A DNA stretch of 64,000 nt from Streptomyces sp. SLBN-31 (GTDB lineage: Bacteria; Actinomycetota; Actinomycetes; Streptomycetales; Streptomycetaceae), in assembly GCF_006715395.1 (NCBI RefSeq), contig NZ_VFNC01000002.1:3472001-3536000 (forward strand), in the 5' to 3' direction. Both the position numbers and the translations under genes were made by a program. A model generated the notes under the pieces. It was not told the DNA's origin and did not search any database. It worked only from the letters and a program-made list of their open reading frames with translations. Positions within the stretch are counted from its first letter, which is position 1; every line of letters starts with the position of its first letter. Positions 22,669 through 38,678 of the stretch are shown here, piece after piece.

Positions 22669-24607
22669 CACGCTCAAGAGCACTACGGGCGCCGGTGGCG
22701 CCACCGGCGGCCTGCGCCGCCTGCTCCTCGACAACGGCGCGCTCACCGCGCTGATCGTCCTCCTCATCGCCCTGTCGGCGCTGTCCGGGGACTTCCTGAC
22801 CACCGACAACCTGCTCAACGTCGGCGTCCAGGCGGCCGTGACCGCCGTCCTCGCCTTCGGCGTCACCTTCGTGATCGTCTCGGCGGGCATCGACCTGTCG
22901 GTGGGCTCGGTGGCCGCGCTGTCCGCCACCGTCCTCGCCTGGAGCGCCACTTCGCACGGCGTGCCGGTCGTGCTCGCGGTCGTGCTGTCCGTGGCGACCG
23001 GCGTCGTGGCCGGACTGGTCAACGGCTTCCTGATCGCGTACGGGAAACTGCCGCCGTTCATCGCGACGCTCGCCATGCTGTCGGTGGCCCGCGGTCTGTC
23101 GCTGGTGATCTCCGAGGGCTCCCCGATCCCCTTCCCCGACTCCGTCTCCCACCTCGGTGACACGCTCGGCGGCTGGCTGCCGGTGCCCGTGCTGGTCATG
23201 GTGGTCATGGGGCTGCTGGCGGCGTTCGTGCTCGGGCGGACGTACATCGGCCGTTCGATGTACGCGATCGGCGGCAACGAGGAGGCCGCACGGCTGTCCG
23301 GGCTGCGGGTGAAGAAGCAGAAGCTGGCGATCTACGCCTTCTCCGGGCTGTTCGCGGCCGTCGCCGGCATCGTGCTCGCCGCCCGGCTGTCCTCGGCGCA
23401 GCCGCAGGCCGCCGACGGCTACGAGCTGGACGCGATCGCCGCGGTCGTCATCGGCGGGGCCTCGCTCGCGGGCGGTACCGGCAAGGCGTCCGGCACGCTG
23501 ATCGGCGCGCTGATCCTGGCGGTGCTCCGCAACGGGCTGAACCTGCTCAACGTCTCCGCGTTCTGGCAGCAGGTCGTCATCGGCGTCGTCATCGCGCTGG
23601 CGGTGCTCCTCGACACGCTGCGGCGCAAGGCGGGTGCCACGCCGGTGGCCGCGGGTACCGGGGGCAACAAGTCCAAGCAGGCGGGGACCTACGCCCTCGC
23701 GGCCGTCGTCACCGTCGCGCTGGTCGGCGCGACCTCCTTCCTGCACAACGGCGGCTCGTCCTCGGCCACCCCGAAGGTGGGCCTGTCGCTGTCCACCCTC
23801 AACAACCCCTTCTTCGTGCAGATCCGCTCCGGAGCCCAGGCCGAGGCGAAGAGGCTGGGCGTGGACCTGACCGTCACCGACGCACAGAACGACGCCTCAC
23901 AGCAGGCCAACCAGCTGCAGAACTTCACCAGTTCGAGCCTCGGCGCGATCATCGTCAACCCGGTGGACTCGGACGCGGCGAGCAACTCCGTGAAGGCCGC
24001 CGACAAGGCGAAGATCCCGGTCATCGCCGTCGACCGCGGTGTCAACAAGGCGACCGTGGACGCCCTGGTGGCCTCCGACAACGTCAAGGGCGGTGAACTG
24101 GCCGCGCGGACGATCGGCGAGAAGCTGGGCGGCAAGGGCAAGATCGTGATCCTGCAGGGCCAGGCGGGCACGTCGGCGGCGCGCGAGCGCGCGGCGGGCT
24201 TCGCGGCCGGTCTGAAGGCCTACCCGGGCATTCAGGTGGTCGCCCAGCAGCCGGCCGACTTCGACCGCACCAAGGGACTCGACGTGATGTCGAACCTGCT
24301 CCAGGCGCACCCGGACGTCCAGGGCGTCATCGCCGCCAACGACGAGATGGCCCTCGGCGCGATCAAGGCGCTGGGCTCCAAGGCCGGCAAGTCGGTCCAG
24401 GTCGTCGGATTCGACGGCACCCCGGACGGTCTGAAGGCCGTCGAAGGGGGGACGCTGTACGCGTCCGTGGCGCAGCAGCCCTCGCAACTGGGCAGGATCG
24501 CCGTGGACAACGCGCTCAGGGCCCTGCAGGGCAAGAAGGTCGAGGAGATGGTGAAGGTGCCGGTGAAGGTCGTCACGAAGCAGAACGTGGCCGGCTTCAC
24601 CGGCTGA
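22658..24607 (+). CDS. Ribose ABC transporter permease-substrate-binding fusion (RbsC-RbsB)
   Basis: A 649-residue fusion. Residues 1 to about 325 are an RbsC-type permease with about eight to ten membrane helices and the family segments DLSVGSVAALSA, NGFLIAYGKLPPFIATLAM and SGLRVKKQKLAIYAFSG. A further helix (residues 345-362) leads to an RbsB-type ribose-binding domain (about 370-649) with VGLSLSTLNNPFFVQIRSGA, VNPVDSDAASNSV, IPVIAVDRGV and VVGFDGTPDGLKAV. The binding protein is thus tethered to the outer face of the membrane, with no lipoprotein signal. GTG 22658 has GGAGG six bases before it. I see no stop or frameshift between the halves. Confidence 0.9.
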   Translation: MATDTLKSTTGAGGATGGLRRLLLDNGALTALIVLLIALSALSGDFLTTDNLLNVGVQAAVTAVLAFGVTFVIVSAGIDLSVGSVAALSATVLAWSATSHGVPVVLAVVLSVATGVVAGLVNGFLIAYGKLPPFIATLAMLSVARGLSLVISEGSPIPFPDSVSHLGDTLGGWLPVPVLVMVVMGLLAAFVLGRTYIGRSMYAIGGNEEAARLSGLRVKKQKLAIYAFSGLFAAVAGIVLAARLSSAQPQAADGYELDAIAAVVIGGASLAGGTGKASGTLIGALILAVLRNGLNLLNVSAFWQQVVIGVVIALAVLLDTLRRKAGATPVAAGTGGNKSKQAGTYALAAVVTVALVGATSFLHNGGSSSATPKVGLSLSTLNNPFFVQIRSGAQAEAKRLGVDLTVTDAQNDASQQANQLQNFTSSSLGAIIVNPVDSDAASNSVKAADKAKIPVIAVDRGVNKATVDALVASDNVKGGELAARTIGEKLGGKGKIVILQGQAGTSAARERAAGFAAGLKAYPGIQVVAQQPADFDRTKGLDVMSNLLQAHPDVQGVIAANDEMALGAIKALGSKAGKSVQVVGFDGTPDGLKAVEGGTLYASVAQQPSQLGRIAVDNALRALQGKKVEEMVKVPVKVVTKQNVAGFTG

Positions 24608-24701
24608 CGACGGCAACGGCCGGGACGGTCGGGAACGACGGGGAACGGGCGGGCGGCCAGGGGGACCGCCCGCCCCAGGACACTCATCCGGGAGTCTTTT
24701 C

Positions 24702-25691
24702 ATGTACGACTACGACCTGCTGGTCGTGGGTTCGGCCAACGCCGACCTGGTCATCGGTGTCGAGCGACGGCCGGAGGCGGGCGAGACCGTGCTCGGCTCC
24801 GACCTGGCCGTCCACCCGGGCGGCAAGGGCGCCAACCAGGCCGTCGCCGCCGCTCGCCTCGGGGCCCGTACGGCCCTGCTGGCGCGGGTCGGCGACGACG
24901 CGAACGGCAGGCTGCTGCTGGACTCGCAGCGGGCGGCCGGCGTCGACACGGTGGGCGTGCTGGTGGGCGGGGCGCCGACGGGGGTCGCGCTCATCACCGT
25001 CGACCCGTCGGGGGACAACAGCATCGTGGTGTCGCCGGGCGCGAACGGCCGGCTGACCCCGGCCGACGTCCGGGCGGCGGCCAGCCTGTTCCAGTGCTCG
25101 CGGGTGGTGTCGGCGCAGCTGGAGATCCCGCTGGAGACGGTCGTGGAGGTGGTACGCAGTCTGGCGGAGGGCAGCCGGTTCGTGCTGAACCCGTCGCCGC
25201 CCCGGCCGCTGCCGACCGAGGTGCTGGCGGCCTGCGATCCGCTGATCGTCAACGAGCACGAGGCGAAGGTCGTCCTGGGCGAGGCGTGCGTGTCCGAGCG
25301 GCCGGAGGACTGGGCGCGGCTGCTGCTGGCGAAGGGACCGCGGTCGGTGGTGATCACCCTGGGCGCGCAAGGTGCGTTGGTGGCCTCCGCGGAAGGGGTG
25401 GAGCGGGTGCCGTCGACGAAGGTGGACGCGGTCGACACCACGGGCGCGGGCGACGCGTTCACGGCGGCGCTGGCCTGGCGGCTGGGCACGGGCTCCGGCC
25501 TGGCCCAGGCCGCCGCCTACGCGGCCCGCGTCGGGGCGGCCGCCGTCACCAAAGAGGGCGCCCAGGAGTCCTTCCCGACGGCGGAGGAGGTCGAGTCCCT
25601 GTGCTGTACCGGCCCGGGGGGCGACCCCCGGACCCCCGGCAGAGAGCCGGACGACGCGTCCGACACCGGCCGACGAGGTGAGTCCCTGTGA
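24702..25691 (+). CDS. rbsK: Ribokinase (RbsK)
   Basis: A 329-residue PfkB-family kinase that makes ribose 5-phosphate. It shows LLVVGSANADLV, the substrate motif HPGGKGANQAVAAARLGA (about residues 38-55), VNEHEAKVVLG, and the C-terminal catalytic motif VDAVDTTGAGDAFTAALAW (about residues 245-263). The C-terminal tail after residue 300 is rich in Gly, Pro and Asp and is longer than usual. The ATG at 24702 lies after GGGAG. The stop overlaps rbsD by 4 bp. The 94-bp gap from the transporter gene has no clear terminator. Confidence 0.94.
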   Translation: MYDYDLLVVGSANADLVIGVERRPEAGETVLGSDLAVHPGGKGANQAVAAARLGARTALLARVGDDANGRLLLDSQRAAGVDTVGVLVGGAPTGVALITVDPSGDNSIVVSPGANGRLTPADVRAAASLFQCSRVVSAQLEIPLETVVEVVRSLAEGSRFVLNPSPPRPLPTEVLAACDPLIVNEHEAKVVLGEACVSERPEDWARLLLAKGPRSVVITLGAQGALVASAEGVERVPSTKVDAVDTTGAGDAFTAALAWRLGTGSGLAQAAAYAARVGAAAVTKEGAQESFPTAEEVESLCCTGPGGDPRTPGREPDDASDTGRRGESL

Positions 25692-26077
25692 AGAAGGCGG
25701 GGATCCTCAACCGGCACCTCTCCGGCGCGCTGGCCGAGCTCGGGCACGGGGACGGGGTGCTGGTGTGCGACGCGGGCATGCCGATCCCGGACGGCCCGCG
25801 CGTGGTCGACCTGGCCTTCCGTGCCGGGGTGCCGTCCTTCGCGACGGTGCTCGACGGCCTGCTGGCCGAACTCGTGGTGGAGGGGGCCACGGCTGCCGCG
25901 GAGGTGCAGGACGCCAATCCCGGGGCCGCCGCCCTGCTGACGGGCGAGTTCCCCCAGCTGGAGCTGGTCTCGCACGAGCGCCTGAAGGAGCTGTCGGCCG
26001 GGGCACGGCTGGTGGTCCGCACCGGGGAGGCGCGGCCGTACGCGAACGTGCTGCTGAGGTGCGGGGTGTTCTTCTAG
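25688..26077 (+). CDS. rbsD: D-ribose pyranase (RbsD)
   Basis: A 129-residue mutarotase that converts beta-pyranose ribose to the beta-furanose form used by ribokinase. It carries the family opening KKAGILNRHLSGALAELGHGD with the catalytic histidine in NRHLS, VCDAGMPIPDGP and the C-terminal TGEARPYANVLLRCGVFF. The GTG at 25688 overlaps the rbsK stop (GTGA). It is the last gene of the ribose operon and is followed by a U-tract terminator. Confidence 0.94.
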   Translation: MKKAGILNRHLSGALAELGHGDGVLVCDAGMPIPDGPRVVDLAFRAGVPSFATVLDGLLAELVVEGATAAAEVQDANPGAAALLTGEFPQLELVSHERLKELSAGARLVVRTGEARPYANVLLRCGVFF

Positions 26078-26252: not shown

Positions 26253-27326
26253 TCAGATGGCCGGTCGGGTGAGGTAGCCGAGGAGCTTGTCGAGGAGGCC
26301 CTCCCCCGTCACAGGGTCGATCGTGTAGCGGGTGACCGATGTGCTGCCGGGGAACTTGGGCAGGTCGTCCGCGCTGTGTTCGGGGAAGACGACCCGCAGG
26401 ATGCGGCGGTGCCAGGTCTTGGGGTTGTCGTGGGCGTAGTCCCAGATGTAGGCCCCCTCCCAGGTCGCGCCGAGTCCCTTGCCCTCGGCCTCCTTCTGCT
26501 CGACGCGCCGCTTGTAGGGGGTGGAGGCCACCATGACGATGAAGTCGGCCGCCTCGCACTCCTCGCTGCACCAGCGGGCCCAGTTCTGGGGCTCGTCCTC
26601 CGCGTCGAAGTCCGCCCTGACCTCGACGTGGTCGCGCAGCAGCTTGATCAGGGAGCGCACCCGTTCGCGGTGCTCGGGGTCGTCCTCGTCGTGCGCGTAC
26701 GAAATGAACACCCGCGGTCGTCTCGGGTCCGCCGCCGGCTTCCGCTGAGGCGGCACCTTGGCCACCGGACCGGCCTCACGGCGCGGGAATGGCAGTACCA
26801 GATCGCGCAGTTCGTCGGCGGACACCACGGGCGGGCTGCTTTCGTATCCGGCACAGACGGCGGCGGCGATGCCGTCGACGGCCTGACGGTACGCCGCGCC
26901 GAAGCCCTCGGCGAAGATGATGCCGTACAGACCCGTGCAGGCGTAGCTGTCCGTGGCCTCGCCGCTCAGGATGGGGGCGAAGGGCACTCCGGGGGGTGCT
27001 ACGGCGGTTCGCCAGCGCACCAGGACACGGGCCGGTGAGTCAGAGGGGCGGAGCCGGGGGGCCACGAGGTGCAGACGGCGTTCGAAGACCGCCCAGTCGG
27101 CGCCGCAGTCCGGGTCCTTGTAGTAGGCCTCCGAGCACAGCGCGACCAGGACACGGGCCTCGGCGACCAGTGGACGGTTGGCCTTGCCCTCTCCACCACG
27201 GCACATGGCCGCATGGATCGCGTGCCCCCTGCGCCGCCCCACGGCCGCGGCCAGATCCTGGTGGAATTGCGCCGCATAGGCAAAGTGCTCGACGGCGGCG
27301 AAACTCGTGACGAAGTCGTGTGACAT
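26253..27326 (-). CDS. Two-domain TIR-like (FxsC-type) plus SEFIR/TIR protein
   Basis: A 357-residue protein with two domains of the TIR superfamily. The first (residues 1-200) has the FxsC-type layout: FVTSFAAVEHF, the LVALCSEAYYKDPDCGADWAVF patch, VLVRW, TGLYGIIFAEGFGAAYRQAVD and a VVSADELRDL end. The second (about 228-357) is SEFIR-like: RPRVFISYAHDEDDPEHRERV, LLRDHVEVRADFDA, then ADFIVMVASTPYKRRV. These fit signalling or protein-interaction roles rather than metabolism. It starts at ATG 27326 with AAGGGG five bases before, and faces the radical SAM gene across a 123-bp gap, so it likely belongs to that locus. Catalytic NADase residues could not be confirmed by eye. Confidence 0.7.
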   Translation of the reverse strand: MSHDFVTSFAAVEHFAYAAQFHQDLAAAVGRRRGHAIHAAMCRGGEGKANRPLVAEARVLVALCSEAYYKDPDCGADWAVFERRLHLVAPRLRPSDSPARVLVRWRTAVAPPGVPFAPILSGEATDSYACTGLYGIIFAEGFGAAYRQAVDGIAAAVCAGYESSPPVVSADELRDLVLPFPRREAGPVAKVPPQRKPAADPRRPRVFISYAHDEDDPEHRERVRSLIKLLRDHVEVRADFDAEDEPQNWARWCSEECEAADFIVMVASTPYKRRVEQKEAEGKGLGATWEGAYIWDYAHDNPKTWHRRILRVVFPEHSADDLPKFPGSTSVTRYTIDPVTGEGLLDKLLGYLTRPAI

Positions 27327-27449
27327 GCGCACCCCTTCACTCCCTCTGCCCCGCGCATCCCTGGTCACGCCCAAAAAGGTGCTGACGTTGGCCAGTTGGC
27401 TCCTCATCGGGCACCGGTCGTTCCTCGTACGCTGAGCGGGGGGACACAC

Positions 27450-28775
27450 ATGGCCGCGCCGCCTGCGCCTCGGCGTGATCCGAACCGCCCCCCGGTGACG
27501 AACGGGGGCCGGATGCAGGGAACTTCGCCGAGCCTTGACACTACGTCAATGGTGGCCGTCCCGAACAGACGTGAGGGACCCACGTGGGACGACAGCACCC
27601 CACCCGCGAATCATTGGCCAGAACCTCGGATATCCGTCACCGAAGACGGCCGGACAACCCTGCGGGCATTCGACCAATTCATCGTCAAGCTGAGCAGCCG
27701 GTGCAATCTTTCCTGCGACTACTGCTACGTATATGAATTGCGTGACTCGGGATGGCGCCACCGCCCCCGGATCATGCCCGCGCCGGTGCGCGAACGGCTC
27801 GTATCACGCATCACGGAACACGTACGACGACACCGCCTGGACCGTGTCAGGGTGCTCCTGCACGGTGGGGAGCCGCTGCTCGCCGGAGCCCGAGTGATCG
27901 CAGATCTCACCACAGCGCTCCGCCGGGCAGTGCTCGCGGCCGGCGCCGGGGTGGACTTCGCGCTCCAGACCAACGGCGTCCTGCTCACCGAGGCCCTCCT
28001 GGACCTGCTGCTGGATCTGGACGTCCAGGTCGGGGTCAGCCTGGACGGCTACGCGGAGGCGCACGACCGGCACCGCCGCGGACCGGCGTCGCGGTCGCGG
28101 CCGGGCCCGGGCACCTACGCCCGGGTGACCGCCGCGCTCCGTCTGCTGGGCACCGCGCCCTACCGGCCCCTGTTCGGCGGTCTGCTGTGCACCATCGACC
28201 CGGCGAGCGATCCGGTGCGCGTCTTCGACGCCCTCGCCGCCCACCGGCCGCCGGCCGCCGACTTCCTTCTGCCACACGCGACTTGGGACCATCCGCCGAT
28301 CAGCACCGACGGCGGAACCCCGTACGCGGCGTGGCTGTGCGCCGTCCACGACCGGTGGCGGGAGAGCGGGCGTCCGATGCGGATACGGCTCTTCGAGTCG
28401 GTCGACTCCCTGTCCCGGCACGGCGGAAGCAGCAGCGAGGTACTGGGCACCGTTCCGGCGGCGGCCGTGGCGATCGAGACGGACGGGGCGGTGGCGTGGA
28501 CGGAGTCACTGAACGCCGTGGCAGAGGGAGCGGCCGGCACGGGCGGCTCGGTATTCAGCCACTCGTTCGACGCCCTGCTGGGTCTTGCCTGCGCGCCGCA
28601 GTACGGCACGGGCTCCCTGTGCCGTACCTGTCAGGAGTGCCCCTTGGTGCGCGTCTGCGGCGGTGGGCTGCGCGCCCACCGCTTCGGACGCGGCCGGGGT
28701 TTCGCCAACCCCTCCGTCTACTGCAAGGACATCTCCGCTCTCATCCGGCACATCGGGCCCCGGCTGGATCGGTGA
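27450..28775 (+). CDS. fxsB: FxsB-family radical SAM/SPASM peptide maturase
   Basis: A 441-residue radical SAM enzyme. CNLSCDYCY (about residues 87-95) is the C-x3-C-x2-C cluster motif that binds [4Fe-4S] and SAM. HGGEPLL and QTNGVLLTEALLDLL are the usual barrel elements. The C-terminal SPASM region has CRTCQECPLVRVCGGGLRAH and the PSVYCKDI end typical of FxsB, which in related systems makes a cyclophane link in a small peptide. An N-terminal extension of about 75 residues without domain similarity precedes the barrel. ATG 27450 has GGGGGGA close upstream, but ATGs at 27512 or 27549 are also possible. The next gene in the locus starts 257 bp further on. Confidence 0.82.
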   Translation: MAAPPAPRRDPNRPPVTNGGRMQGTSPSLDTTSMVAVPNRREGPTWDDSTPPANHWPEPRISVTEDGRTTLRAFDQFIVKLSSRCNLSCDYCYVYELRDSGWRHRPRIMPAPVRERLVSRITEHVRRHRLDRVRVLLHGGEPLLAGARVIADLTTALRRAVLAAGAGVDFALQTNGVLLTEALLDLLLDLDVQVGVSLDGYAEAHDRHRRGPASRSRPGPGTYARVTAALRLLGTAPYRPLFGGLLCTIDPASDPVRVFDALAAHRPPAADFLLPHATWDHPPISTDGGTPYAAWLCAVHDRWRESGRPMRIRLFESVDSLSRHGGSSSEVLGTVPAAAVAIETDGAVAWTESLNAVAEGAAGTGGSVFSHSFDALLGLACAPQYGTGSLCRTCQECPLVRVCGGGLRAHRFGRGRGFANPSVYCKDISALIRHIGPRLDR

Positions 28776-29032
28776 CCGCATTTTCCGGGACACCCGGCCG
28801 AAAAACGGAGGCTACCAGCGCAAATGTACGATGCTACACGCCCTTTTGAGCGAGGGAATAGTCGATGTCGGGTTTTCGGGGGCGTCGGGAGGGCAAAACC
28901 CCATAGCATAGGGACCAATTGGCGTGGGGGCACGTACAACTGAAACCCACCTGCGTGCTTCACGTCCATGTGAGTCCATGAGCAAGGACCAAGCCGTGGT
29001 TGCAGCAGGAGGCAGGCCCTTGGGGGGATGCG
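28772..29032 (+). other. Gap after fxsB with overlapping micro-ORFs (possible precursor candidates)
   Basis: The 257-bp gap after the radical SAM gene holds three short frames. A 25-residue frame starts at a GTG that overlaps the fxsB stop (28772-28849). A 39-residue frame starts at ATG 28824 (ends 28943) with GGAGG 12 nt upstream. A 26-residue frame starts at ATG 28831 (ends 28911). They contain aromatic-rich bits (TAFSGTPG, VFGGVG, GFSGASGG), but none ends in the FxSxx pattern expected of an FxsA precursor. A GGGTTTT/AAAACCC hairpin lies at 28870-28901. A coding role is only a possibility. Confidence 0.25.
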
Positions 29033-30349
29033 ATGGGGCCGTTGTTCTTTACCAGCTACGCCAGCTCGACCGGTGACAGAGGACCGGTCCAACGGTTCCA
29101 CATCGATGTCCAGAACGAGATCTACAGCGTGCTGGGCCGCACGCCGTCCGCCGAGGGTCGGCTGAAGCGCCCGGAGCCCGCCGCGGATCCGGACGACGTC
29201 GTTCTGAACTGCCGCGCCCTGCTGGTCCTGTACTCGGCGGAGTACGTCGACGACCTTCAGTGCGCCAGGGAGTGGTCCGTATTCACAGAGCGCATGGACC
29301 GCCGTATGCGACGCACCGGTGAGCGACCCGACTCACTGGTCGGTGTCGTGTGGCGCACCGACGCACTGGTGCTGCCCCGTCCCGTCACCGCCATACGGCA
29401 CATCGTCGACGAGGAGTACCAGGGGCCCGGGGTGCTCGGCCTCCAGCGGGACCGGCACAGCCGGAGCCGCTACCAGGGAATCGTGCGCCGCGTCGCTGCG
29501 GAGCTGATGCGGGCCGCCGAGTCACCGCCGCCGGTCATGTCCGAGGCGGAGAGCCGCGGCGTGATCCCGCGGTTCGGCCCGAGCCGGGCGGTGGCCCGCG
29601 CCAGGCCGGCCGCAACCGAGCCGGAGTCCTCGCGGGCGCACGCGGCGGAACCGACCGCCGACCTTGCGGGCCGTCACGTGTTCCTGCTCCTGGTGGCCGG
29701 CACCCGCAACCGGATGCGGCACCTGCGCGAACAGGTCGGCCATTACGGGCGGTCGGCCGAGGAGTGGCGGCCCTTTCGCCCGTACAGCGAGGAGACCGTG
29801 CCCTCCACCGTCGGCCGGGCGGCACGGGCCTGCGGGATCGACCGGCTCGGCGTCGTCACGCCCCGGCCGGACGGCTGCTTACCCGACGAGCTGGACGAGT
29901 CGGCGACGGTCCTCGTCGTCATCGATCCCTGGCTGACGGGCGATCCCGCGTTCCCCGCACTGTGGGAGCGGATCGCGCGGTCACCGGCACGCGTCGCCGC
30001 CGTCGTCGTCGTACTCACCCGCACGGACGAGGAGAGCACCGCCAACGCGGCCCGGCTGCGCGAGGCGGTCTCCCGGACACCGGCGCGGGTGCTCGGCGCG
30101 GCGCACCAGGAGGCGGGCAGCCGGGACGCGCTGGCGCACATCGTGGCGGCCGTACTGGCCGACGCCGCCACACGCCCCGAGGCCGGCAACGGCCGTGCAC
30201 GCGGCAGAACGGAGGACCTGTCCATCGAGAGTCCGGCCGAAAGACGCGTCCGCAGGCACCGGGAGCGCGCCGGCTGGCTCAGGCACGGGGCGAACCCGTG
30301 GCCTTCGATTCTGAGCAGAACGCCCGGCGAGTCGCTGGGCCCGGGCTGA
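29033..30349 (+). CDS. fxsC: TIR-like protein FxsC
   Basis: A 438-residue protein with an FxsC-type N-terminal domain (residues 1-165): MGPLFFTSYASSTGDRG, LLVLYSAEYVDDLQCAREWSVF, VVWRTDALVLP and GVLGLQRDRHSRSRYQGIVR. The second domain (about 210-370) starts GRHVFLLLVAGTRNRMRHLRE and has TIR- or flavodoxin-like alternation with VLVVIDPWLTGDPAF. The last 60 residues are Arg-rich. Family members are encoded with FxsB and TPR/NB-ARC partners; molecular function is unproven. ATG 29033 follows GGGGGGATGCG. It lies 16 bp before the large FxsT-like gene, in the same operon. Confidence 0.75.
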   Translation: MGPLFFTSYASSTGDRGPVQRFHIDVQNEIYSVLGRTPSAEGRLKRPEPAADPDDVVLNCRALLVLYSAEYVDDLQCAREWSVFTERMDRRMRRTGERPDSLVGVVWRTDALVLPRPVTAIRHIVDEEYQGPGVLGLQRDRHSRSRYQGIVRRVAAELMRAAESPPPVMSEAESRGVIPRFGPSRAVARARPAATEPESSRAHAAEPTADLAGRHVFLLLVAGTRNRMRHLREQVGHYGRSAEEWRPFRPYSEETVPSTVGRAARACGIDRLGVVTPRPDGCLPDELDESATVLVVIDPWLTGDPAFPALWERIARSPARVAAVVVVLTRTDEESTANAARLREAVSRTPARVLGAAHQEAGSRDALAHIVAAVLADAATRPEAGNGRARGRTEDLSIESPAERRVRRHRERAGWLRHGANPWPSILSRTPGESLGPG

Positions 30350-30365
30350 GCGTATGGGGCGGGGG

Positions 30366-33300
30366 ATGAGTACCACAGGTTCAGCAGGTACAGAAGGTTC
30401 AACAGGTGCGGCGGGACCGGGGGGTTCGGCGATCGCGGCAGGTCCGGCGAAGATCATCTCCTTCTACTCCTTCAAAGGCGGAGCCGGCCGCACCATGGCG
30501 CTGGCCAACGCCGCCTGGATCATGGCCAGCCAGGGGAAGTCGGTGCTGGTCATCGACTGGGACCTGGAGGCGCCCGACCTCCACGTCTACTACGGCACCT
30601 TCCTTCCGATCCAGGACCTCACCTCGGCCGACGGAGTGCTGGACATGTTCTCCGCCTTCGCCAAAGCAGCTGCCGCCATGGACGAGGCGGAGGACCCGAG
30701 CGCCCTGCACCCCGACCACACCGACGTCGAGCGCTATCAGATCCGCCTCGAACACGACTTCCCGAACGGCGGCCGGCTCCACTACATGGGCCCCGGACGC
30801 ATGGGCGGCGACTACGCCGACCGCCTGGCCAGGATCGACTGGAACGGCTTCCGCACCAGCGACGACGGCAGCGAGTTCCTGGAGGCGCTGCGCGCGCGAC
30901 TGCTCGACAGCGACTACGACTACGTCCTCATCGACAGCCGTACCGGCTTCTCCGGCGGTGCTGAGATCTGTACGCTCGCCCTGCCCGACACCGTCGTCAT
31001 CGCGCTCACCATGAGCCGGCAGGCCATCCAGGGCGCCCGCAAGATCGCCGAACGGATCTGCCGGTCCCTCAGACCCATCGGTCTGCACGTCGTGCCCACG
31101 CGGGTCGACAGGGGCGAGCAGGACCGGATGCACCGGCGCCGCGACGAAGCACGCCGGTCCCTCGACCCGTACCTCGGAATCACCGACGCGGATGCCCTGG
31201 CCACCTACTGGGGCCAGGTGAAGGTGCCGTACGTGCCCTACTACACGTACGGCGAGGAACTGGCGGTGATGCGGGACGACCCCCGCGACACCGACAGCCT
31301 CCTCGCGGCGTACGTCAGCCTCGTCGACCGGGTCACCGACGGTGCCGTACGGGAGTTCCAGCCGGTGCCCAGCGCCAAGTCCCGCGCGTACCGGCAGCAA
31401 CTCGCCCACCGGGAGCGGCTGGAGGCCGAGCAGGAGGCCGAGCCCTGCACGGTCACCATCCTGCACGCGCCCAACGACCGGCTGTGGGCCGACTGGATCG
31501 GCGAACTGCTGGCCCCGACCCGGATCCAGATCGTCCAGCCTGGCGACAAGCCCGCCGACTCCTTACCCGACAGCACCTACGTGCTCGCCCTGCTCTCCCC
31601 GCATCTCGCGGGCACGCCGGCCGGTGAGACCGTCGCGCGACTCACCACGGGCGCGCCCGTCGGCGCCGGCCCGGGCGACCAGCAGGTCATCGGTGTGCGC
31701 GTGAGCACCGCGCGGCTGGCCCCGCACTTCGAGTTCGACTGGCACGACACGATCACCCTGGACGGCCAGAACGAGGAAGTGGCCCGCCAGGAGTTGCTGG
31801 GCCACTTCGGACTGTCCGCGGGGGCCGGGGAACCGGCGGCCGCCTGGGCCGGTCCCCGGTTCCCCGGACGGCAGCCCGAGGTGTGGGACCTGCCCATGCG
31901 CAACGCCGAGTTCATCGGGCGGGTGGAGCAACTCAACGCGCTGCGCGAGGGGTTCGACTCCTTCGGCGGGAACTCCTCGCCGCCCCAGGTGCTGTGCGGC
32001 CTGGACGGTGTCGGCAAACAGCAGATCGCCCTGGAGTACGCCCACCGGTTCGCCTCGCAGTACGACATGGTGTGGTGGGTGCCCGCCGCGGAGAACGTCC
32101 AGGACTCCCTCACCAGGCTGGCCCGCGCGGTCGGCGCCTCCGGCGGTGGCCCGCACACCGGCGAGGACCGCCAGGCGCTGCTGGAGCGGCTGCGGCAGGA
32201 GCGGCGCCGGTGGCTGCTGGTCTTCGACGGTGTGAAGGACCAGGAGGCGGTCAAGGACCTCATACCGACCGGCGGCTCGGGCCACGTCCTGATCACCTCG
32301 GGCAGCATGGAGTGGGCTCCCGAGTTCACGAGGCATCCCGTCGACCCCTTCACTCCCGAGGAGAGTGTGGCCCTGCTCAGCCGCAGGCTTCCCGGGGCGT
32401 CCGACGAGGAACTGCTGCGGCTGGCCGAGCGGCTCGGGCACCTGCCGATCTGGGAGAAGGCCGCGGCCAACGTGCTGCGGGCCTGCCCCCAGGACATCGA
32501 CCTCTTCATCGAGGAGCTCGACAGCCGCGGCACGGCCTCCCAGGAGGAGGTCTCGACGGAGTACCGAGACTTCACCGAGGTCTGCAAGCTGGCCTACGAG
32601 GATCTGCGCTCGCAGTCCCCGGCCGCGGCCCGGCTGCTGGACCTGTGCGCCTTCCTGTCGCCGGACGGGGTCGGCATGAACGTCGTCAAGTCGGACCGGA
32701 TGCTGGAGCTGCTGAAGCAGTCCGACCCCGAACTGAACGACGCCGACTTCATCATGCACCGCCACCTCAAGCTCCTGGGCGACCAGGCGCTCGCCGTCCA
32801 GGACCCCCGGCTGCGTACGCTCAAGGTGCCCCGCGTGGTGCAGGACCTGGTCCGCGGCTGGATGACCGAGGAGGAGCGCGACGGCACCCGCGCCGAGGTG
32901 CTGGGCGTCCTCGCCGCCATGGTTCCGAACGACCTGGAACGGCACGAGCCGGAGCACGCGAGGACCTTCGTCGAGCTCGACCGGCACGTCATGGTCTCCG
33001 GGGCCGTGGACAGCACCAAGCTGGCCGTGCACCGCTGGCTGGTGAGCCAGGTGTACCACCGCTGGATGTCGGGTGACTGGAAGCGCGCCCGTGAGCTGGG
33101 CGAACTCGTCTTGGAGCGCTGGCGGCAGGCGCTGGGACCGGAGCACCTCATGGTGCTGCGCATGGAGTCCCAGCTCGGCGCGGCCTGCCGGCTCCTCGGC
33201 GATTACCGCACGGCGCTCGAACTCACCACCCACGCGGCGGGCACCCTGCGCGCGAATCGCAGCAACGAGGCCGACATCCTGCTGGCCCGGCGCGGCTACG

Positions 33301-34346
33301 CGGCCGACCTGCGGGCCGTGGGCAGGTTCCGGGAGGCGCGCGACGAGGACCAGGGGACCTTCTTGGGGCTGAAGAGGGCTATCGGCGAGGACGCCAACGG
33401 AACGCTGGCCGCCTCGCACAACCTCGCCCTGTCGAAGTTCTACGTCGAGTCGGTCCCGGCCGCGATCCGCCAGGAGCAGCAGGCGCACGAGTGGCGCGAG
33501 CAGATCGCGACCAAGAAGGACCCCAAGCCGTGGGTGTCGTACGCGCATCTCGGCACGTACCACCGGGAGGCGGGCGACCTGGCCACCTCGGAGCGGTACC
33601 TGGACGAGGCCCGCACCAGGCTGAACAGCCTGCTGGGCACCGGTTCCCACCAGACGCTGGGCGCCGTCGCCAGCCTGGGCATGACCATGGTGCGCCGGGG
33701 CGAGGTGGAGCACGGCCTGACGCTGGTCAAGGACGCGTACGTCGCCTACCGCGACACCTGGGGCGAGCAGCACCCCCGCACGATGTCCTGCGGGCTGTCC
33801 CTCGCCATCGGCCTGCACGCCCAGGGCAGGACCCCGGACGCCGTGGCCTACACCCGGGACATGCTGGGCCACTACGTCGAAGTGTTCGGCGACGACCACC
33901 CCTTCACCGGCATCTGCCGCAGCAACCTCGCGCTGTACCTGCTGGACTTCGGGCAGGCGGAGGAGGCGAAGGAGCACGCCGGCGCGGCGCTGGTCCAACT
34001 GCGGGACGCGTTCGACCGCAGGCACCGCTACACGTTGGTCGCCCGAATAAACCACAACAACTGCATGGCGGCGCTGGACGAGCTGAGCACCGGGGAGCTG
34101 GCCCTCGAGGATCAGGACATCTACGACGGCTGCAAGGAGCAGTCCGCGTGGGGCGAGAGCCACCCGGTCACACTGACCGCGATGGCGAACCTGCTCGCCT
34201 CCCGTCCCCCGGCCGACGGAGAACTCGCGGCAAGCCTCGAACGCAAGGTCGCCGAATACTTCCCGAAGGACCACCGGCTCGCCACGGCACTGCTGGCCGA
34301 GCCGTATCTGAGGATCGGCGCCGATCTGGAGGTGCAGGGTGTCTGA
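30366..34346 (+). CDS. fxsT: FxsT-like protein: MinD/ParA-like P-loop, TIR-like, NB-ARC and TPR domains
   Basis: A 1326-residue multidomain protein. The N-terminal domain (about 25-310) is MinD/ParA-like: FYSFKGGAGRTMALANAAWIM, VLVIDWDLEAPDLHVYYGTF and YVLIDSRTGFSGGAEI. A TIR-like domain follows (about 355-480: CTVTILHAPNDRLWADWIGEL). An NB-ARC-type ATPase (about 515-810) has the P-loop CGLDGVGKQQIALEYAHRF and LLVFDGVKDQEAVKDL. From about 890 to 1315 there are TPR-type repeats, for example LGAACRLLGDYRTALELTTHA and NLALYLLDFGQAEEAKEHA. The plan matches STAND-type proteins of FxSxx-COOH loci. Both P-loops are atypical (GRT and GKQ). Start 30366 is preferred over 30354. The end overlaps the next gene by 8 bp. 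Confidence 0.8.
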   Translation: MSTTGSAGTEGSTGAAGPGGSAIAAGPAKIISFYSFKGGAGRTMALANAAWIMASQGKSVLVIDWDLEAPDLHVYYGTFLPIQDLTSADGVLDMFSAFAKAAAAMDEAEDPSALHPDHTDVERYQIRLEHDFPNGGRLHYMGPGRMGGDYADRLARIDWNGFRTSDDGSEFLEALRARLLDSDYDYVLIDSRTGFSGGAEICTLALPDTVVIALTMSRQAIQGARKIAERICRSLRPIGLHVVPTRVDRGEQDRMHRRRDEARRSLDPYLGITDADALATYWGQVKVPYVPYYTYGEELAVMRDDPRDTDSLLAAYVSLVDRVTDGAVREFQPVPSAKSRAYRQQLAHRERLEAEQEAEPCTVTILHAPNDRLWADWIGELLAPTRIQIVQPGDKPADSLPDSTYVLALLSPHLAGTPAGETVARLTTGAPVGAGPGDQQVIGVRVSTARLAPHFEFDWHDTITLDGQNEEVARQELLGHFGLSAGAGEPAAAWAGPRFPGRQPEVWDLPMRNAEFIGRVEQLNALREGFDSFGGNSSPPQVLCGLDGVGKQQIALEYAHRFASQYDMVWWVPAAENVQDSLTRLARAVGASGGGPHTGEDRQALLERLRQERRRWLLVFDGVKDQEAVKDLIPTGGSGHVLITSGSMEWAPEFTRHPVDPFTPEESVALLSRRLPGASDEELLRLAERLGHLPIWEKAAANVLRACPQDIDLFIEELDSRGTASQEEVSTEYRDFTEVCKLAYEDLRSQSPAAARLLDLCAFLSPDGVGMNVVKSDRMLELLKQSDPELNDADFIMHRHLKLLGDQALAVQDPRLRTLKVPRVVQDLVRGWMTEEERDGTRAEVLGVLAAMVPNDLERHEPEHARTFVELDRHVMVSGAVDSTKLAVHRWLVSQVYHRWMSGDWKRARELGELVLERWRQALGPEHLMVLRMESQLGAACRLLGDYRTALELTTHAAGTLRANRSNEADILLARRGYAADLRAVGRFREARDEDQGTFLGLKRAIGEDANGTLAASHNLALSKFYVESVPAAIRQEQQAHEWREQIATKKDPKPWVSYAHLGTYHREAGDLATSERYLDEARTRLNSLLGTGSHQTLGAVASLGMTMVRRGEVEHGLTLVKDAYVAYRDTWGEQHPRTMSCGLSLAIGLHAQGRTPDAVAYTRDMLGHYVEVFGDDHPFTGICRSNLALYLLDFGQAEEAKEHAGAALVQLRDAFDRRHRYTLVARINHNNCMAALDELSTGELALEDQDIYDGCKEQSAWGESHPVTLTAMANLLASRPPADGELAASLERKVAEYFPKDHRLATALLAEPYLRIGADLEVQGV

Positions 34347-35337
34347 CCCCTACACGGCGCCGGCGTACGCCCCGGCACACGGACTGGACGGAGTGAACAA
34401 GAAGATGAGCGAGCTCGATTTACGGCTCCGTCAGTTGCTTCAGTCATGTCAGCTGACGCATCTCGCGTTCTACGACCGGGACCGGGCGAAAATGTTCGCC
34501 GCCGAAACTCCGCGGCCGCCCGAGGACTTCCCGGCGGAGCCGGGATCAGAGCGTCTCGAACACGACGGGCGGCAACTCTTCTACATTCTCGAGGAATTGG
34601 CGCCTGATTTCGCGGAATTACGCACCGGCGCACTCATACGCACGGTGGTGCGCGTTCCCAGCGGAGCGCTTCTCTACCATTCCGTCGCGGCCGACTTCCA
34701 TCTCTGCTGCGCCACGCGCCAGGACCGGATAACCGAGCTGATCGCCCGTATGAACGAGGGGATGGACGGCCTCCGGCCGGCCGTCCGTTACAGCATGCTG
34801 CACCGCCGCGCGTATGCGAGCAGGTACGCCGCCGCGGGCGCTTCGGCGAAACCGCCCGCAGGCGAGGACGACACCGAGGCGGACGACGTCGCCGAAGGCA
34901 ACCCGTACATGGTGGACACCGGCGCCGACAGGGCAGCCGGCATCGGCGACCTGCTGCGCGCGGCCCTGGGCATCCATGGCCTGCACTACGTCGCGTACTA
35001 CGCCGCCGGTGTCCCCGCCTGCACGGCCGACATCTTCCGCCACCCAGCGCTGCGCAGCCACTTCGGCTCCGCCACGCCGCAGCAGCGACGGGACAGGTAC
35101 GGCCTGCTGGGACAGCTACTCCCCGGCGTCACGGACCGTATGAACACCTCCCTGCACGCACTGCTCGAAGGGGAGATCCAGCAGATCGTGCTGAACGTGG
35201 AGCAGGGAGCCGTGTACTTCCAGCAGCTCTACGACCGCCACTACCTGCTGGGCGTCTCCCTGAACCAGGCGCGACTGGCCGAGGCGGACCAGCACATAGA
35301 GCGGCTGGGCAGAGAACTGGCTGACGAGGCGGGGTAA
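34339..35337 (+). CDS. Unrecognised conserved-type protein of the fxs locus
   Basis: A 332-residue protein starting at GTG 34339, with GGAGG six bases upstream and inside the end of the fxsT-like gene, so the two are translationally coupled. No domain could be named. Visible features are a CQLTHLAFYDRDRAKMF segment, a stretch of about 110 residues that looks alpha/beta (FYILEELAPDF, ALIRTVVRVPSGALLYHSVAADFHLCCATR), an acidic linker (EDDTEADDVAEGN, about residues 175-188) and a long C-terminal helical region ending IERLGRELADEAG. It lacks a signal peptide and membrane segments. From its place it probably works with the FxsT- and FxsC-like proteins. Confidence 0.6.
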   Translation: MSDPYTAPAYAPAHGLDGVNKKMSELDLRLRQLLQSCQLTHLAFYDRDRAKMFAAETPRPPEDFPAEPGSERLEHDGRQLFYILEELAPDFAELRTGALIRTVVRVPSGALLYHSVAADFHLCCATRQDRITELIARMNEGMDGLRPAVRYSMLHRRAYASRYAAAGASAKPPAGEDDTEADDVAEGNPYMVDTGADRAAGIGDLLRAALGIHGLHYVAYYAAGVPACTADIFRHPALRSHFGSATPQQRRDRYGLLGQLLPGVTDRMNTSLHALLEGEIQQIVLNVEQGAVYFQQLYDRHYLLGVSLNQARLAEADQHIERLGRELADEAG

Positions 35338-35454: not shown

Positions 35455-36294
35455 TCACCGGATCACGTGCTCCACGAAGCGGTGCGCCGTCTCGTTCAGG
35501 ACCTCGCGGCCGTCCCGTGCCCACAGGACGTCGTTGAACAGCTCGACCTCGATGGCGCCGGTGTAGCCCGCCGCCTCGACGTAGCCCTTCCACTCCCGCA
35601 TGTCGATCGCGCCGTCGCCGATCTGGCCGCGGCCGTTGAGGACGCCCTCCGGGAGGGGGGTGGTCCAGTCGGCGAGCTGGAAGGTGTGGATGCGGTTGCC
35701 CGCCCCGGCGCGGGCGATCTGCGCGGGCGCGTTGTCGTCCCACCAGATGTGGTACGTGTCGACGGTGACGCCGACCTGGTGCGCGGGGAAGCGTTCCGCG
35801 AGGTCGAGGGCCTGGGTGAGGGTCGAGACCACGCAGCGGTCGGAGGCGAACATCGGGTGCAGCGGCTCGATGGCCAGGCGGACACCGTGCCGCTCGGCGT
35901 ACGGGCCGAGTTCCGCGAGCGCGTCGGCGATCCGCTCGCGGGCGCCGTGCAGGTCCTTGGAGCCGGCCGGGAGGCCGCCCGAGACCAGCACGAGGGTGTC
36001 GGTGCCCAGGGTCGCCGCCTCGTCGACGGCGCGGCGGTTGTCGGCCAGGGCGGCGGCGCGCTCGGCCGGGTCGATCGCCGTGAGGAAGCCGCCCCGGCAC
36101 AGGGTGGTGACCGTCAGGCCCGCGTCGCGGACCAGCTTGGCGGTCGCGTCGAGGCCGTACGACTGCACGGGCTCGCGCCACAGGCCGACGTTGCCGATCC
36201 CCAGCTCCCGGCAGGCGTCGACCAGTTCGGGCAACGACAGCTGCTTGACCGTCATCTGGTTGATGGAGAAACGCGTCAGGTCGGGGTCGTTCAC
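35455..36294 (-). CDS. Sugar phosphate isomerase/epimerase (TIM barrel)
   Basis: A 279-residue xylose-isomerase-like barrel (VNDPDLTRFSINQMTVKQLS). Metal-site pieces are VRLAIEPLHPMFASDR, VGVTVDTYHIWWDD, IHTFQLADW and a C-terminal GAIEVELFND, giving the usual Glu/Asp/His/Glu set. The GTG at 36294 overlaps the stop of the upstream lyase gene (GTGA). It is the third and last gene of a tightly coupled sugar-catabolic operon with an oxidoreductase and a DHDPS-like protein. Epimerisation or isomerisation of a keto-sugar is likely; substrate unknown. Confidence 0.85.
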   Translation of the reverse strand: MNDPDLTRFSINQMTVKQLSLPELVDACRELGIGNVGLWREPVQSYGLDATAKLVRDAGLTVTTLCRGGFLTAIDPAERAAALADNRRAVDEAATLGTDTLVLVSGGLPAGSKDLHGARERIADALAELGPYAERHGVRLAIEPLHPMFASDRCVVSTLTQALDLAERFPAHQVGVTVDTYHIWWDDNAPAQIARAGAGNRIHTFQLADWTTPLPEGVLNGRGQIGDGAIDMREWKGYVEAAGYTGAIEVELFNDVLWARDGREVLNETAHRFVEHVIR

Positions 36295-37442
36295 TGGGGC
36301 ACTCCGTACAGGGCGAGCAGGTTCCTCATCCGCTCCTCCGCCAGCTTCGGGTCCGGGAACAGGCCCAGTCCGTCGGCGAGTTCGTAGGCGCGGGCGAAGT
36401 GCGGCAGGGAGCGGGCCGACTGCAGGCCGCCGACCATGGTGAAGTGCGACTGGTGACCGGCCAGCCAGGCCAGGAAGACCACGCCCGTCTTGTAGAAGCG
36501 GGTGGGCGCCTGGAAGAGATGGCGGGACAACTCGACCGTGGGGTCCAGGAGTTCACGGAAGCCGGCGACGTCCCCGGTGTCCAGGACGCGGACCGCCTGC
36601 GCCGCCAGGGGCCCCAGCGGGTCGAAGATGCCGAGCAGGGCGTGGCTGAAGCCCTTCTCGTCACCGGCGATCAGCTCGGGGTAGTTGAAGTCGTCGCCCG
36701 TGTAGCAGCGCACGCCCTGCGGCAGGCGGCGCCGGATGTCGATCTCCCGCTGGGCGTCCAGCAGGGAGACCTTGATGCCCTCGACCTTGTCGGGGTGGGC
36801 GGCGATGACCTCCAGGAAGGTGTCCGTGGCCGCGTCGAGGTCGGCGGAGCCCCAGTAGCCCTCCAGCGCCGGGTCGAACATCGGGCCGAGCCAGTGCAGG
36901 ACCACCGGCTCGGCGGCCTGGCGCAGCAGATGGCCGTAGACCTCCAGGTAGTCCTCGGGACCGGACGCGGCGGCCGCCAGCGCGCGGGAGGCCATCAGGA
37001 TCGCCTGGGCGCCGCAGGACTCCACGAGGGCGAGCTGCTCCTCGTAGGCCGCCCGGACCTCGGCGAGGGTTCCGGCGGTGATCTGGTCGGTGCCGACGCC
37101 GCAGGCGATCCGGCCGCCGACCGCCCTGGCCTCGGCGGCGCTGCGGCGGACCAGCTCGGCCGCGCCCGTCCAGTCCAGGCCCATGCCGCGCTGGGCGGTG
37201 TCCATGGCCTCGGCGACGCCGAGCCCGTGGGACCACAGGTGGCGGCGGAAGGCGAGGGTGGCGTCCCAGTCGACGGCCGCCGGCGAGTCGGGGGTCGTGT
37301 CGGCGAACGGGTCGGCGACGACGTGCGCCGCCGAGAAGACCGTACGGCAGGTGAAGGGGGCGCCGGGGCTGACGGCGAACGGTTCGGGGCGGGGCTCGTA
37401 CGTCCTCAACCCGCCCGTGGAGTCCGGGAGTCGGATGGTCAC
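36291..37442 (-). CDS. Dihydrodipicolinate synthase-family (Schiff-base lyase-like) protein
   Basis: A 383-residue protein with a DHDPS/N-acetylneuraminate-lyase-like barrel core (AVDWDATLAFRRHLWSHGLGVAEAMDTAQRGMGLDW, split here over residues 60-95). It also has IACGVGTDQI, QAILMASRALAAAA, VVLHWLGPMFDPALEGYW and VEGIKVSLLDAQ, where the lysine fits the Schiff-base position. It is longer than typical DHDPS (about 290 residues). It probably cleaves or dehydrates a keto-sugar acid. GTG 37442 overlaps the oxidoreductase stop by 4 bp, and its own stop overlaps the isomerase start, so the three are coupled. Confidence 0.8.
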   Translation of the reverse strand: MTIRLPDSTGGLRTYEPRPEPFAVSPGAPFTCRTVFSAAHVVADPFADTTPDSPAAVDWDATLAFRRHLWSHGLGVAEAMDTAQRGMGLDWTGAAELVRRSAAEARAVGGRIACGVGTDQITAGTLAEVRAAYEEQLALVESCGAQAILMASRALAAAASGPEDYLEVYGHLLRQAAEPVVLHWLGPMFDPALEGYWGSADLDAATDTFLEVIAAHPDKVEGIKVSLLDAQREIDIRRRLPQGVRCYTGDDFNYPELIAGDEKGFSHALLGIFDPLGPLAAQAVRVLDTGDVAGFRELLDPTVELSRHLFQAPTRFYKTGVVFLAWLAGHQSHFTMVGGLQSARSLPHFARAYELADGLGLFPDPKLAEERMRNLLALYGVPQ

Positions 37443-38596
37443 AGCTGGATCTCCGGTACGTCGATGCGGACGCCCTCGGCCGAGGACTTCAGGCCCAGCT
37501 CGGCGAGCTGGACGCCGCGGGCGCCGGCCAGGAGGTCCCAGTGGTAAGGGGCGTCGGCGTAGACGTGCCGCAGGAACAGCTCCCACTGGGCCTTGAAGCC
37601 GTTGTCGAAGTCGTCGTTGTCGGGGATCTCCTGCCACTGGTCGCGGAAGGAGTAGGTGGCCGGGAGATCGGGGTTCCAGACCGGCATGGGCGTCATGGAG
37701 CGGTGCTGGACGCAGCAGTTGCGCAGGCCCGCGACGGCGGAGCCCTCGGTGCCGTCGACCTGGAACTCGACGAGTTCGTCGCGGTTGACGCGCACCGCCC
37801 AGGAGGAGTTGATCTGGGCGATCGCGCCGCCGTCGAGCTCGAAGATGCCGTAGGCGGCGTCGTCGGCGGTGGCGTCGTAGGGCTTGCCGTTCTCGTCCCA
37901 GCGCTGCGGGATGTGGGTGGTGGCGATGGCCTGCACGGACTTCACCCGGCCGAACAGCTCGTGCAGGACGTACTCCCAGTGCGGGAACATGTCGACAACG
38001 ATGCCGCCGCCGTCCTCGGCACGGTAGTTCCACGACGGGCGCTGGGCACTCTGCCAGTCGCCCTCGAAGACCCAGTAGCCGAACTCGCCGCGCACGGACA
38101 GGATCCGGCCGAAGAAGCCGCCGTCGATGAGGCGTTTGAGCTTGAGCAGGCCGGGGAGGAAGAGCTTGTCCTGGACGACGCCGTGCTTGATGCCGGCCTG
38201 GTTCGCGAGGCGGGCGAGCTCCAGCGCGCCGTCCAGGCCGGTGGCCGTCGGCTTCTCGGTGTAGATGTGCTTGCCCGCCGCGATGGCCTTCTTGATCGCG
38301 TCCTCGCGGGCCGAGGTCACCTGGGCGTCGAAGTAGATGTCGACGCCCGGGTCGGCGAGGACCGCGGCGACGTCCGTCGAGATGTTCTCCGGGGCCAGGC
38401 CGTGCTGCTCGGCGAGCGCCCTGAGGGCATGCTCGCGGCGGCCGACCAGGATCGGTTCCGGCCACAGCACGGTGCCGTCGCCGAGGTCGAGGCCGCCCTG
38501 TTCGCGGATGGCCAGGATCGAGCGGACCAGGTGCTGGCGGTAGCCCATGCGTCCGGTCACGCCGTTCATGGCGATACGCACCGTCTTGCGTGTCAC
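37439..38596 (-). CDS. Gfo/Idh/MocA-family oxidoreductase
   Basis: A 385-residue NAD(P)-dependent sugar dehydrogenase. The N-terminal Rossmann part opens VTRKTVRIAMNGVTGRMGYRQH and holds VDIYFDAQVTSAREDAI and GKHIYTEKPTATGL, where EKP is the catalytic lysine motif of the family. The C-terminal domain has GFFGRILSVRGEFGYWVFEGDW and GGGIVVDMFPHWEYVLHELFG. It probably oxidises a sugar or sugar acid as the first step of this operon. The start was set at GTG 38596, five bases after AAGGGA. A LacI-type operator lies 59-82 bp upstream, beside a divergent LacI repressor gene. Confidence 0.88.
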   Translation of the reverse strand: MTRKTVRIAMNGVTGRMGYRQHLVRSILAIREQGGLDLGDGTVLWPEPILVGRREHALRALAEQHGLAPENISTDVAAVLADPGVDIYFDAQVTSAREDAIKKAIAAGKHIYTEKPTATGLDGALELARLANQAGIKHGVVQDKLFLPGLLKLKRLIDGGFFGRILSVRGEFGYWVFEGDWQSAQRPSWNYRAEDGGGIVVDMFPHWEYVLHELFGRVKSVQAIATTHIPQRWDENGKPYDATADDAAYGIFELDGGAIAQINSSWAVRVNRDELVEFQVDGTEGSAVAGLRNCCVQHRSMTPMPVWNPDLPATYSFRDQWQEIPDNDDFDNGFKAQWELFLRHVYADAPYHWDLLAGARGVQLAELGLKSSAEGVRIDVPEIQL

Positions 38597-38654
38597 GTCA
38601 TTCCCTTCGTACGCGGGGACCGCGCCGCGTACGCCCCGTCTTTCACTGATGAGC

Positions 38655-38678
38655 GTCACAGCAAGCGCTTTCTATGAC
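38655..38678. promoter_or_regulatory. LacI-type operator upstream of the oxidoreductase operon
   Basis: A 24-bp imperfect palindrome (10 of 12 pairs match) has outer arms GTCA/TGAC and centre AAGCGCTT (38663-38670), the classic LacI/GalR core. It sits between the oxidoreductase and the divergent LacI gene. Confidence 0.7.

Follow-up and report, generated by a model that had tools for sequence, protein, structure and literature searches.

Five genes related to the FxSxx-COOH/FxsB peptide-processing systems of actinobacteria (TIGR04268, TIGR04269, NF040586, and FxsC) form a block between two other gene sets in a 64,000-nucleotide stretch of the genome of Streptomyces sp. SLBN-31 (contig NZ_VFNC01000002.1, positions 3,472,001 to 3,536,000; 9.47 Mb in three contigs), which is referred to here as the window. 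The block encodes an FxsB-like radical S-adenosylmethionine (SAM) enzyme, FxsC-like and FxsT-like proteins, a 332-residue protein, and a divergently encoded TIR/SEFIR protein (Table 1). A previous sequence-only reading of the window had assigned this gene content, and both the coordinates and the family scores support it. The likeness to the FxSxx-COOH systems lies in an FxsB above the family cut-off and in the C-terminal domain of FxsC, and the FxsT shares the MinD-like and AP-ATPase-TPR architecture found in the peptide-processing systems of Kaur et al. 2020 (PMC7159879), as described in the available part of that article. By contrast with these systems, to the extent that the same text documents them, the window block has neither the precursor peptide FxsA nor an HExxH gene, and it adds an N-terminal PT[FW] segment of FxsB, a predicted double roadblock protein, and the divergent SEFIR-TIR protein. 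The absence of a precursor beside fxsB is real and common to a whole clade of FxsB loci, and the N-terminal segment of the clade enzymes may be a core sequence on which the enzyme acts within its own chain.

The FxsB enzyme and the missing FxsA precursor

The relationship to FxsB proposed previously holds, the window enzyme scoring 411 bits against TIGR04269 (curated cut-off, 370). No second match to TIGR04269 occurs in the whole genome, and this enzyme is thus its single FxsB. FxsB-type enzymes are present in 285 of 394 genomes sampled from this bacterial family, and those of the seven other clade loci share 57-83% identity with the window FxsB. Catalysis seems to be retained in the clade because, in an alignment of 73 FxsB sequences (A2), the CxxxCxxC cysteines of the radical SAM domain (C52, C56, and C59) and the SPASM-region cysteines (C361, C364, C370, and C392) are invariant throughout. 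Translation more likely begins at ATG 27513 than at TTG 27396, because indels upstream disrupt the alignment with relatives. A PADLOC match to prokaryotic viperin (E 8.7e-12) was set aside as a shared domain. The C-terminal tails of four clade FxsBs share a further stretch, i.e., RPNDVFPGR in P0054, APNDVFWGT in P0056, RPKSAFAGR in P0073, and RPNDVFSGR in P0080.

The window locus was compared with 40 FxsB loci from other genomes, comprising seven of its own clade and 33 outside it; the latter are not a random sample, being taken mostly from the upper part of a list with some entries skipped. FxsA was called by a local profile, which was derived from 15 of the compared loci themselves, and by the F-x-S-x-x ending. 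A separate FxsA-like open reading frame (ORF) lies within ~700 bases of the fxsB match start in 31 of the 33 non-clade loci; 27 of these calls have E < 0.01, L088, L094, and L102 reach only E 0.45-0.72 and fit the enlarged FxsA set A3, and L075 was called through its ending FNSAL. By the same profile and ending, no FxsA-like ORF adjoins fxsB in any of the eight clade loci (the window and L068-L074), and the sole match to the local profile among them, in the window, has an E value of 4.5. The difference corresponds to a Fisher p of 4.7e-7, a value that overstates the case because the loci are related. The earlier description of the locus as a variant of the FxSxx family with no adjacent FxsA is therefore borne out, as close relatives have no FxsA beside fxsB either. 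The two non-clade loci without FxsA beside fxsB are L101 (genome G210) and L104 (G013), the latter genome having one beside its other FxsB copy.

Short ORFs beside the FxsB homologues, which the sequence-only reading had proposed to search, were compared all against all over the eight clade loci, and none of 561 ORFs of 22-160 residues outside the five genes is convincingly conserved. Among the matches listed, short ORFs matched in at least four clade loci are rich in Arg, Pro, and Ser and lie at unrelated positions. An F-x-S lies near the end of three short ORFs, whose places in L071 and L074 are unrelated, and the F-x-S ORF at -944 in L074 looks spurious. A precursor between fxsB and fxsC was rejected, since the DNA is conserved but one-base indels break its frames, and likewise the ORF from ATG 28824, for which relatives give different, mostly shorter frames. 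A whole FxsA fused to FxsB was discarded because the extension carries no FxsA leader. A search of 386 candidates for a free peptide resembling the FxsB extension, which has low power, gave none at E up to 10.

The suggestion of a distant precursor is weakened by whole-genome searches, in which first-look filters left 134 to 150 candidates to be scored per genome. TIGR04268 yields nothing above its cut-off of 28 in the window genome (G000; best 16.4 bits, 150 of 725 first-look candidates scored) or in the other four clade genomes with a single FxsB (G249, G325, G388, and G340); across 40 FxsB genomes, 23 have one or more matches. In genomes G043 and G135, the FxsA that is detected adjoins a different FxsB copy. 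The more sensitive FxsA alignment A3 gives E 4.3e-4 in G000 and 2.3e-4 in G249, the rest being weaker; G210, in which no FxsA had been detected, has a match at 0.007. The G249 match was rejected, as it lies inside a 626-residue open frame and has no core end. The G000 match is a 72-residue ORF with an FxsA-like leader on another contig (G000:C1:2326372-2326587), flanked on one side by an aKG-HExxH gene (TIGR04267, 156 bits) and on the other by a trypsin-like gene, and it does not end in F-x-S-x-x. This ORF is unlikely to be the partner of the window FxsB because it has its own aKG-HExxH neighbor and is unmatched, up to E 0.01, in the seven other clade genomes. A true precursor that is too short, diverged, or distant for the searches, the 72-residue ORF being one candidate, is an improbable explanation: the leader of that ORF with its A3 score and the limited number of candidates passing the first-look filters speak in its favor, but the genomic setting of the ORF, the lack of a convincingly conserved short ORF over the clade loci, the empty TIGR04268 searches in five genomes, and, with its low power, the search for a free protein like the extension all speak against it.

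Together with the aKG-HExxH and trypsin-like proteins, the 72-residue ORF forms a second peptide-processing locus in the window genome (L108 1-3236, G000:C1:2324500-2328500). The ORFs inspected within 4 kb there include no radical SAM gene, and a relative of the 72-residue ORF occurs in G225, outside the clade.

The loss of FxsA is accompanied by changes in the enzyme. FxsB residues that separate the clade were checked against the FxsA status of the loci (P0039 numbering). Residue 325 is Y in all 31 FxsA-bearing loci and A in all eight clade loci; residue 317 is Q in 29 of the 31 (L in two) and W in 8/8; residue 380 is R in 28 of the 31 and G in 8/8; and residue 350 is R in 30 of the 31 and P (seven) or V (one) in the clade. 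Residue 42 is D throughout the eight clade loci and mixed, D included, outside. L101 and L104 have E325, G317, S380, and R350. Residues 325, 317, and largely 380 thus go with the free FxsA, and residue 350 marks the clade only; some of residues 325, 317, and 380 may hold the free peptide, as this pattern of exchange suggests. L101 and L104, with no detected FxsA and with E325 and G317, are a second place to seek unusual substrates.

A change in residues that are fixed together with FxsA is also what a new substrate would lead one to expect, and FxsB could act in trans on a cassette partner (the roadblock protein, FxsC, or the SEFIR protein) while the extension helps folding or partner binding. 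The five genes do travel together in different surroundings, but inspection by eye of the FxsC, SEFIR, and roadblock alignments revealed no short conserved aromatic-x-x motif in a variable tail, and a target in trans is considered rather unlikely.

Table 1. Features of the five-gene block and its flanks, in window positions
Feature	Position	Strand	Remark
Divergent gene: FxsC-N-terminal-like (TIR-like) lobe, then SEFIR/TIR domain	26253..27449	-	398 residues from first GTG
fxsB-like radical SAM/SPASM gene	27513..28775	+	Frame open from 27396; ATG 27450 is an alternative start
FxsB N-terminal segment GPTWDDSTPPANHWPEP, candidate cis core	27576..27626	+	Clade-conserved PT[FW]; W at 27585-27587, i+2 D at 27591-27593
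Predicted N-terminal tryptic peptide of window FxsB, EGPTWDDSTPPANHWPEPR			
fxsB stretch with clade-diagnostic W317 and A325	28497..28523	+	P0039 numbering
fxsB residue P350	28596..28598	+	
fxsB residue G380	28686..28688	+	
fxsB-fxsC intergenic region	28776..29032	+	Conserved DNA with inverted repeat, likely regulatory
fxsC-like gene: TIR-like N-terminal part, FxsC C-terminal domain	29033..30349	+	
fxsT-like gene: KGGVGR-type P-loop ATPase, weak TIR-like stretch, NB-ARC-like NTPase, DUF7779, TPRs	30354..34346	+	
Gene for predicted tandem roadblock/LC7 protein, 332 residues	34339..35337	+	8-base overlap with fxsT
Left neighbors: ribose-type ABC operon with PfkB kinase and RbsD	20950-26077		
Right neighbors: isomerase-like gene and oxidoreductase	35455-38659		

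The N-terminal segment of the clade enzymes

The sequence-only reading was correct that the locus has no separate precursor and overlooked a core-like motif in the N-terminus of FxsB itself. PT[FW] is present in 24 of the 25 clade FxsBs with a readable N-terminus, the exception being P0088. Among 121 listed FxsBs (P0038-P0158), PT[FWY] was flagged in 20 (19 distinct, as P0038 and P0039 are both the window protein) and in none outside the clade, many of the listed starts being cut or uncertain; five further clade loci (L068-L071 and L073) carry PT[FW], and the other listed clade FxsBs without it have a start given after the motif or are truncated, except P0088, whose stated N-terminus has a different sequence. 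In alignment A4, which has 18 extension segments and omits P0084 and five clade loci, every segment shares the P, the T, and a W further on, and PT is always followed by F or W. A WP motif was also considered as the core and taken to be structural, since it occurs at the N-terminus of many non-clade FxsBs as well.

A quick tree of 55 FxsB cores, calculated with no bootstrap and with L081, L082, L101, and L104 left out, places all 22 motif-bearing rows and P0088 on one side of a branch supported at 99 by the SH-like approximate likelihood ratio test. Basal members have PTFDSATAP (six proteins) or PTFQSATAP (P0077, the L074 protein), which contain F-x-S-x-x, the motif of FxsA; the window enzyme has PTWDDSTPP, and other branches have PTFNDATPP, PTFDDCTPS, and PTFEQNCPP. 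FxsA peptides elsewhere end, for example, in FNSAL, FNSAF, FDNSF, FSESQ, or HKESQ, or carry YEDGP near the end, and YEDSP is a further FxsA core; the FDSAT or FQSAT of the seven basal proteins is most like FNSAL and FNSAF. Basal members of the clade thus resemble an FxsA core well in this segment, and the window enzyme does so weakly. When the extensions are scored with an FxsA-core profile, the motif ranks first among their four-residue words in 19 of 23 cases, and shuffled extensions match its score in 0-7% of trials for 13 of the 23, all of them F-bearing.

The extension is conserved as protein sequence. In the part from GPT to WPEP, six non-independent pairs from four close genomes show 37.0 synonymous differences over 67.9 sites (0.54) and 16.0 non-synonymous differences over 238.1 sites (0.067). 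Because the pooled non-synonymous value is so far below the synonymous one (0.067 versus 0.54), the extension is, on these substitution counts, under purifying selection. In the predicted structure of FxsB, the block means of the predicted local distance difference test (pLDDT) for residues 11-30 are 92 and 94, and residue 12 is placed in a strand or bridge; the segment is hence predicted to be ordered. The range of the model that aligns with ChlB begins at residue 28 or 29, after the motif. These observations bear on ordinary decay, in which FxsA was lost and a relic FxsB kept by hitch-hiking: no precursor was found, as decay would have it, but the identity among clade FxsBs, their intact cysteines, and the selection on the extension make it very improbable.

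In the characterized enzymes of this class, an aromatic residue i becomes linked to the beta carbon of residue i+2; the pairs reported in the available text of PMC11002830 include Phe-Ser (MscB) and Trp-Asp/Asn (OscB). In the reading favored here, which is given slightly less than an even chance, the clade lost its free FxsA, the core motif moved into FxsB, and the enzyme cyclizes its own N-terminus. The PT[FW]xx segment would fold against the radical SAM domain of its own chain, enter the active site, and be modified in cis, the aromatic residue being joined to the beta carbon of residue i+2 with loss of 2 H. By analogy with the characterized enzymes, the predicted join is from Trp to the second Asp of T-W-D-D in the window and between Phe and Ser in basal members. 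The characterized cyclophane enzymes (PMC11002830) and ChlB (PDB 9gm3/9gmc) differ, insofar as the accessible records describe them, in that their substrate is a separate peptide.

Several observations weigh against self-cyclization. For the other ten of the 23 extensions, namely six W-bearing ones and the FEM, FEQ, and FQE forms, shuffled sequences match the motif score in 20-100% of trials, and for the W form of the window 20% of shuffled extensions score as well. The residue at i+2 varies across the clade (S, D, E, M, and Q), and in L071, L073, and P0055 it is M or Q, neither of which is among the residues recorded in the available part of PMC11002830. The extension is devoid of any FxsA leader, and a single-turnover, self-modifying enzyme would be an unusual product. 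Many public annotations place the FxsB start after the motif (P0040-P0047), so that the extension would be hidden in them. P0088, which is sister to the FDSAT-bearing P0085 and comes from contigs of 1.5 kb at most, stands within the clade and, going by the start given for it, has no motif; it may be an intermediate or a loss. Lastly, R350 is kept in the FxsA-less L101 and L104 and lost in the FxsA-bearing L075, and neither R350 nor R380 is cleanly split by FxsA status.

The same variable i+2 residue, odd for a product, would suit a segment that serves as an unmodified pseudo-substrate or lid in cis, gating another substrate or sensing the SAM or redox state. The conservation and modeled order of the segment speak for such a lid as well, and so does the lack of a leader and of processing genes: NCBIfam and Pfam scans found no recognized peptidase in the five genes, and TIGR04267 (HExxH) has no match up to E 1 in them, FxsB being covered by its best 25 of 66 families. 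Catalysis seems, however, to be retained, given the cysteines invariant in 73 sequences, and the basal F-x-S-x-x is what a substrate would show; a pseudo-substrate is thus judged unlikely, if still worth serious consideration.

Partner proteins, mobility, and significance

The FxsC exceeds the cut-off for its C-terminal domain (TIGR04276, 62.9 versus 55) and stays under that for the N-terminal one (78 versus 130). Its start, MGPLFFTSYAS, is conserved in the four closest genomes, and C-x-x-E-W-S-V-F is kept in all eight clade loci. The divergent 398-residue protein likewise reaches 67 bits against FxsC_Nterm (NF040588), under the cut-off of 130, and exceeds the Pfam cut-offs for TIR_2 (39.6) and SEFIR (33.6); where readable (the window, L069, L070, L071, and L073), its N-terminal lobe has C-x-x-D-W in contrast to the C-x-x-E-W of FxsC. 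Its SEFIR part matches PADLOC bSEFIR at E 8.9e-16 (profile positions 38-156 of 412), and its start is likely MSHDF, inside the first-GTG frame. FxsT scores 739 bits against NF040586 (cut-off, 300) and 130 against NF047398, the KGGVGR ATPase domain (cut-off, 90); in Pfam, DUF7779 and TPR_12 are above and TIR_2 and AAA_16 below their cut-offs. A PADLOC match of FxsT to PDC-M28B was set aside as a shared domain.

The 332-residue protein had been called unrecognized, which is true of family searches, as NCBIfam gives nothing up to E 1 and Pfam nothing above cut-off, and not of its fold. An AlphaFold2 model from 28 relatives (mean pLDDT, 81) contains two copies of a helix, two strands, one or more helices, three strands, and a helix. 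Foldseek returns MglB (3t1s) as the best match (probability 1.00, E 1.8e-3) and archaeal roadblock proteins at E ~0.002, with none below 0.001. On this model it is a double roadblock/LC7 protein: each half resembles MglB and other roadblock/LC7 proteins in fold, and it differs from them in having two copies in one chain and in adjoining fxsT. Relatives occur in 23 of the 394 family genomes at E up to 1e-5; the nine strong ones (E < 1e-25) belong to eight clade genomes and G038, in which the contig is 7.8 kb and no FxsB was matched. Because distant roadblock relatives follow FxsT in another FxsB group (L077-L080, L083, L084, L086, and L087), FxsT and the roadblock protein are a recurrent pair. 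In those eight loci, FxsA, FxsT, and the distant roadblock-like protein are divergent from fxsB.

Aligned over four genomes, the fxsB-fxsC intergenic region reaches a mean column identity of 88%. It contains one-base indels and a GGGTTTT...AAAACCC inverted repeat, and comparison of these genomes revealed no conserved ORF in it; it may serve fxsC-fxsT as a regulated promoter or as an attenuator.

The complete block, with its gene order and orientation unchanged, is found again in three named Streptomyces genomes (L068-L070) as well as in G388 and G135, and it is therefore more than a chance arrangement. The divergent SEFIR gene is clear in five of the seven other clade loci, L072 and L074 having no clear one. 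When seven genes flanking the block in the window were compared with these seven loci (18-19 kb each), the only match was a generic ABC-ATPase in L073 at 29% identity. Since the flanks differ while the block recurs in the same order, it behaves as a movable module.

In the portion of Kaur et al. (PMC7159879) available, systems bearing FxsT, radical SAM, and TIR proteins are counted as conflict systems, with toxin or signal as the suggested role of the processed peptide. It is proposed tentatively, with doubt outweighing confidence, that the clade enzyme cross-links itself and that a signaling cassette of TIR/SEFIR, STAND NTPase, and roadblock proteins has this cross-linked N-terminus as its functional output in place of a released peptide. 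The matured N-terminus would then be a signal or a part within a conflict or signaling cassette and would be read by the FxsT, FxsC, SEFIR, and double roadblock proteins. Borosins offer a precedent for such a fusion of core and modifying enzyme, since in their precursor, according to the accessible text of PMC7878506 and PMC8429565, a methyltransferase domain modifies its own C-terminal core; the chemistry there is different and the core is at the other end, and self-modification, reported for borosins, is inferred for the window FxsB. In a literature search mostly outside subscription papers, titles and the beginnings of abstracts gave no description of a precursor-fused cyclophane synthase, and the one relevant paper found on FxsB/FxSxx was that of Kaur et al.

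The role of FxsB peptides beside TIR proteins and STAND NTPases is only suggested, as toxin or signal, in the available text of PMC7159879. If the favored reading is true, the clade would contain a substrate-fused radical SAM cyclophane synthase, whose cross-linking in cis could be checked on one protein and one tryptic peptide, and a single chain holding both substrate and enzyme would point to modification in place as the thing that matters.

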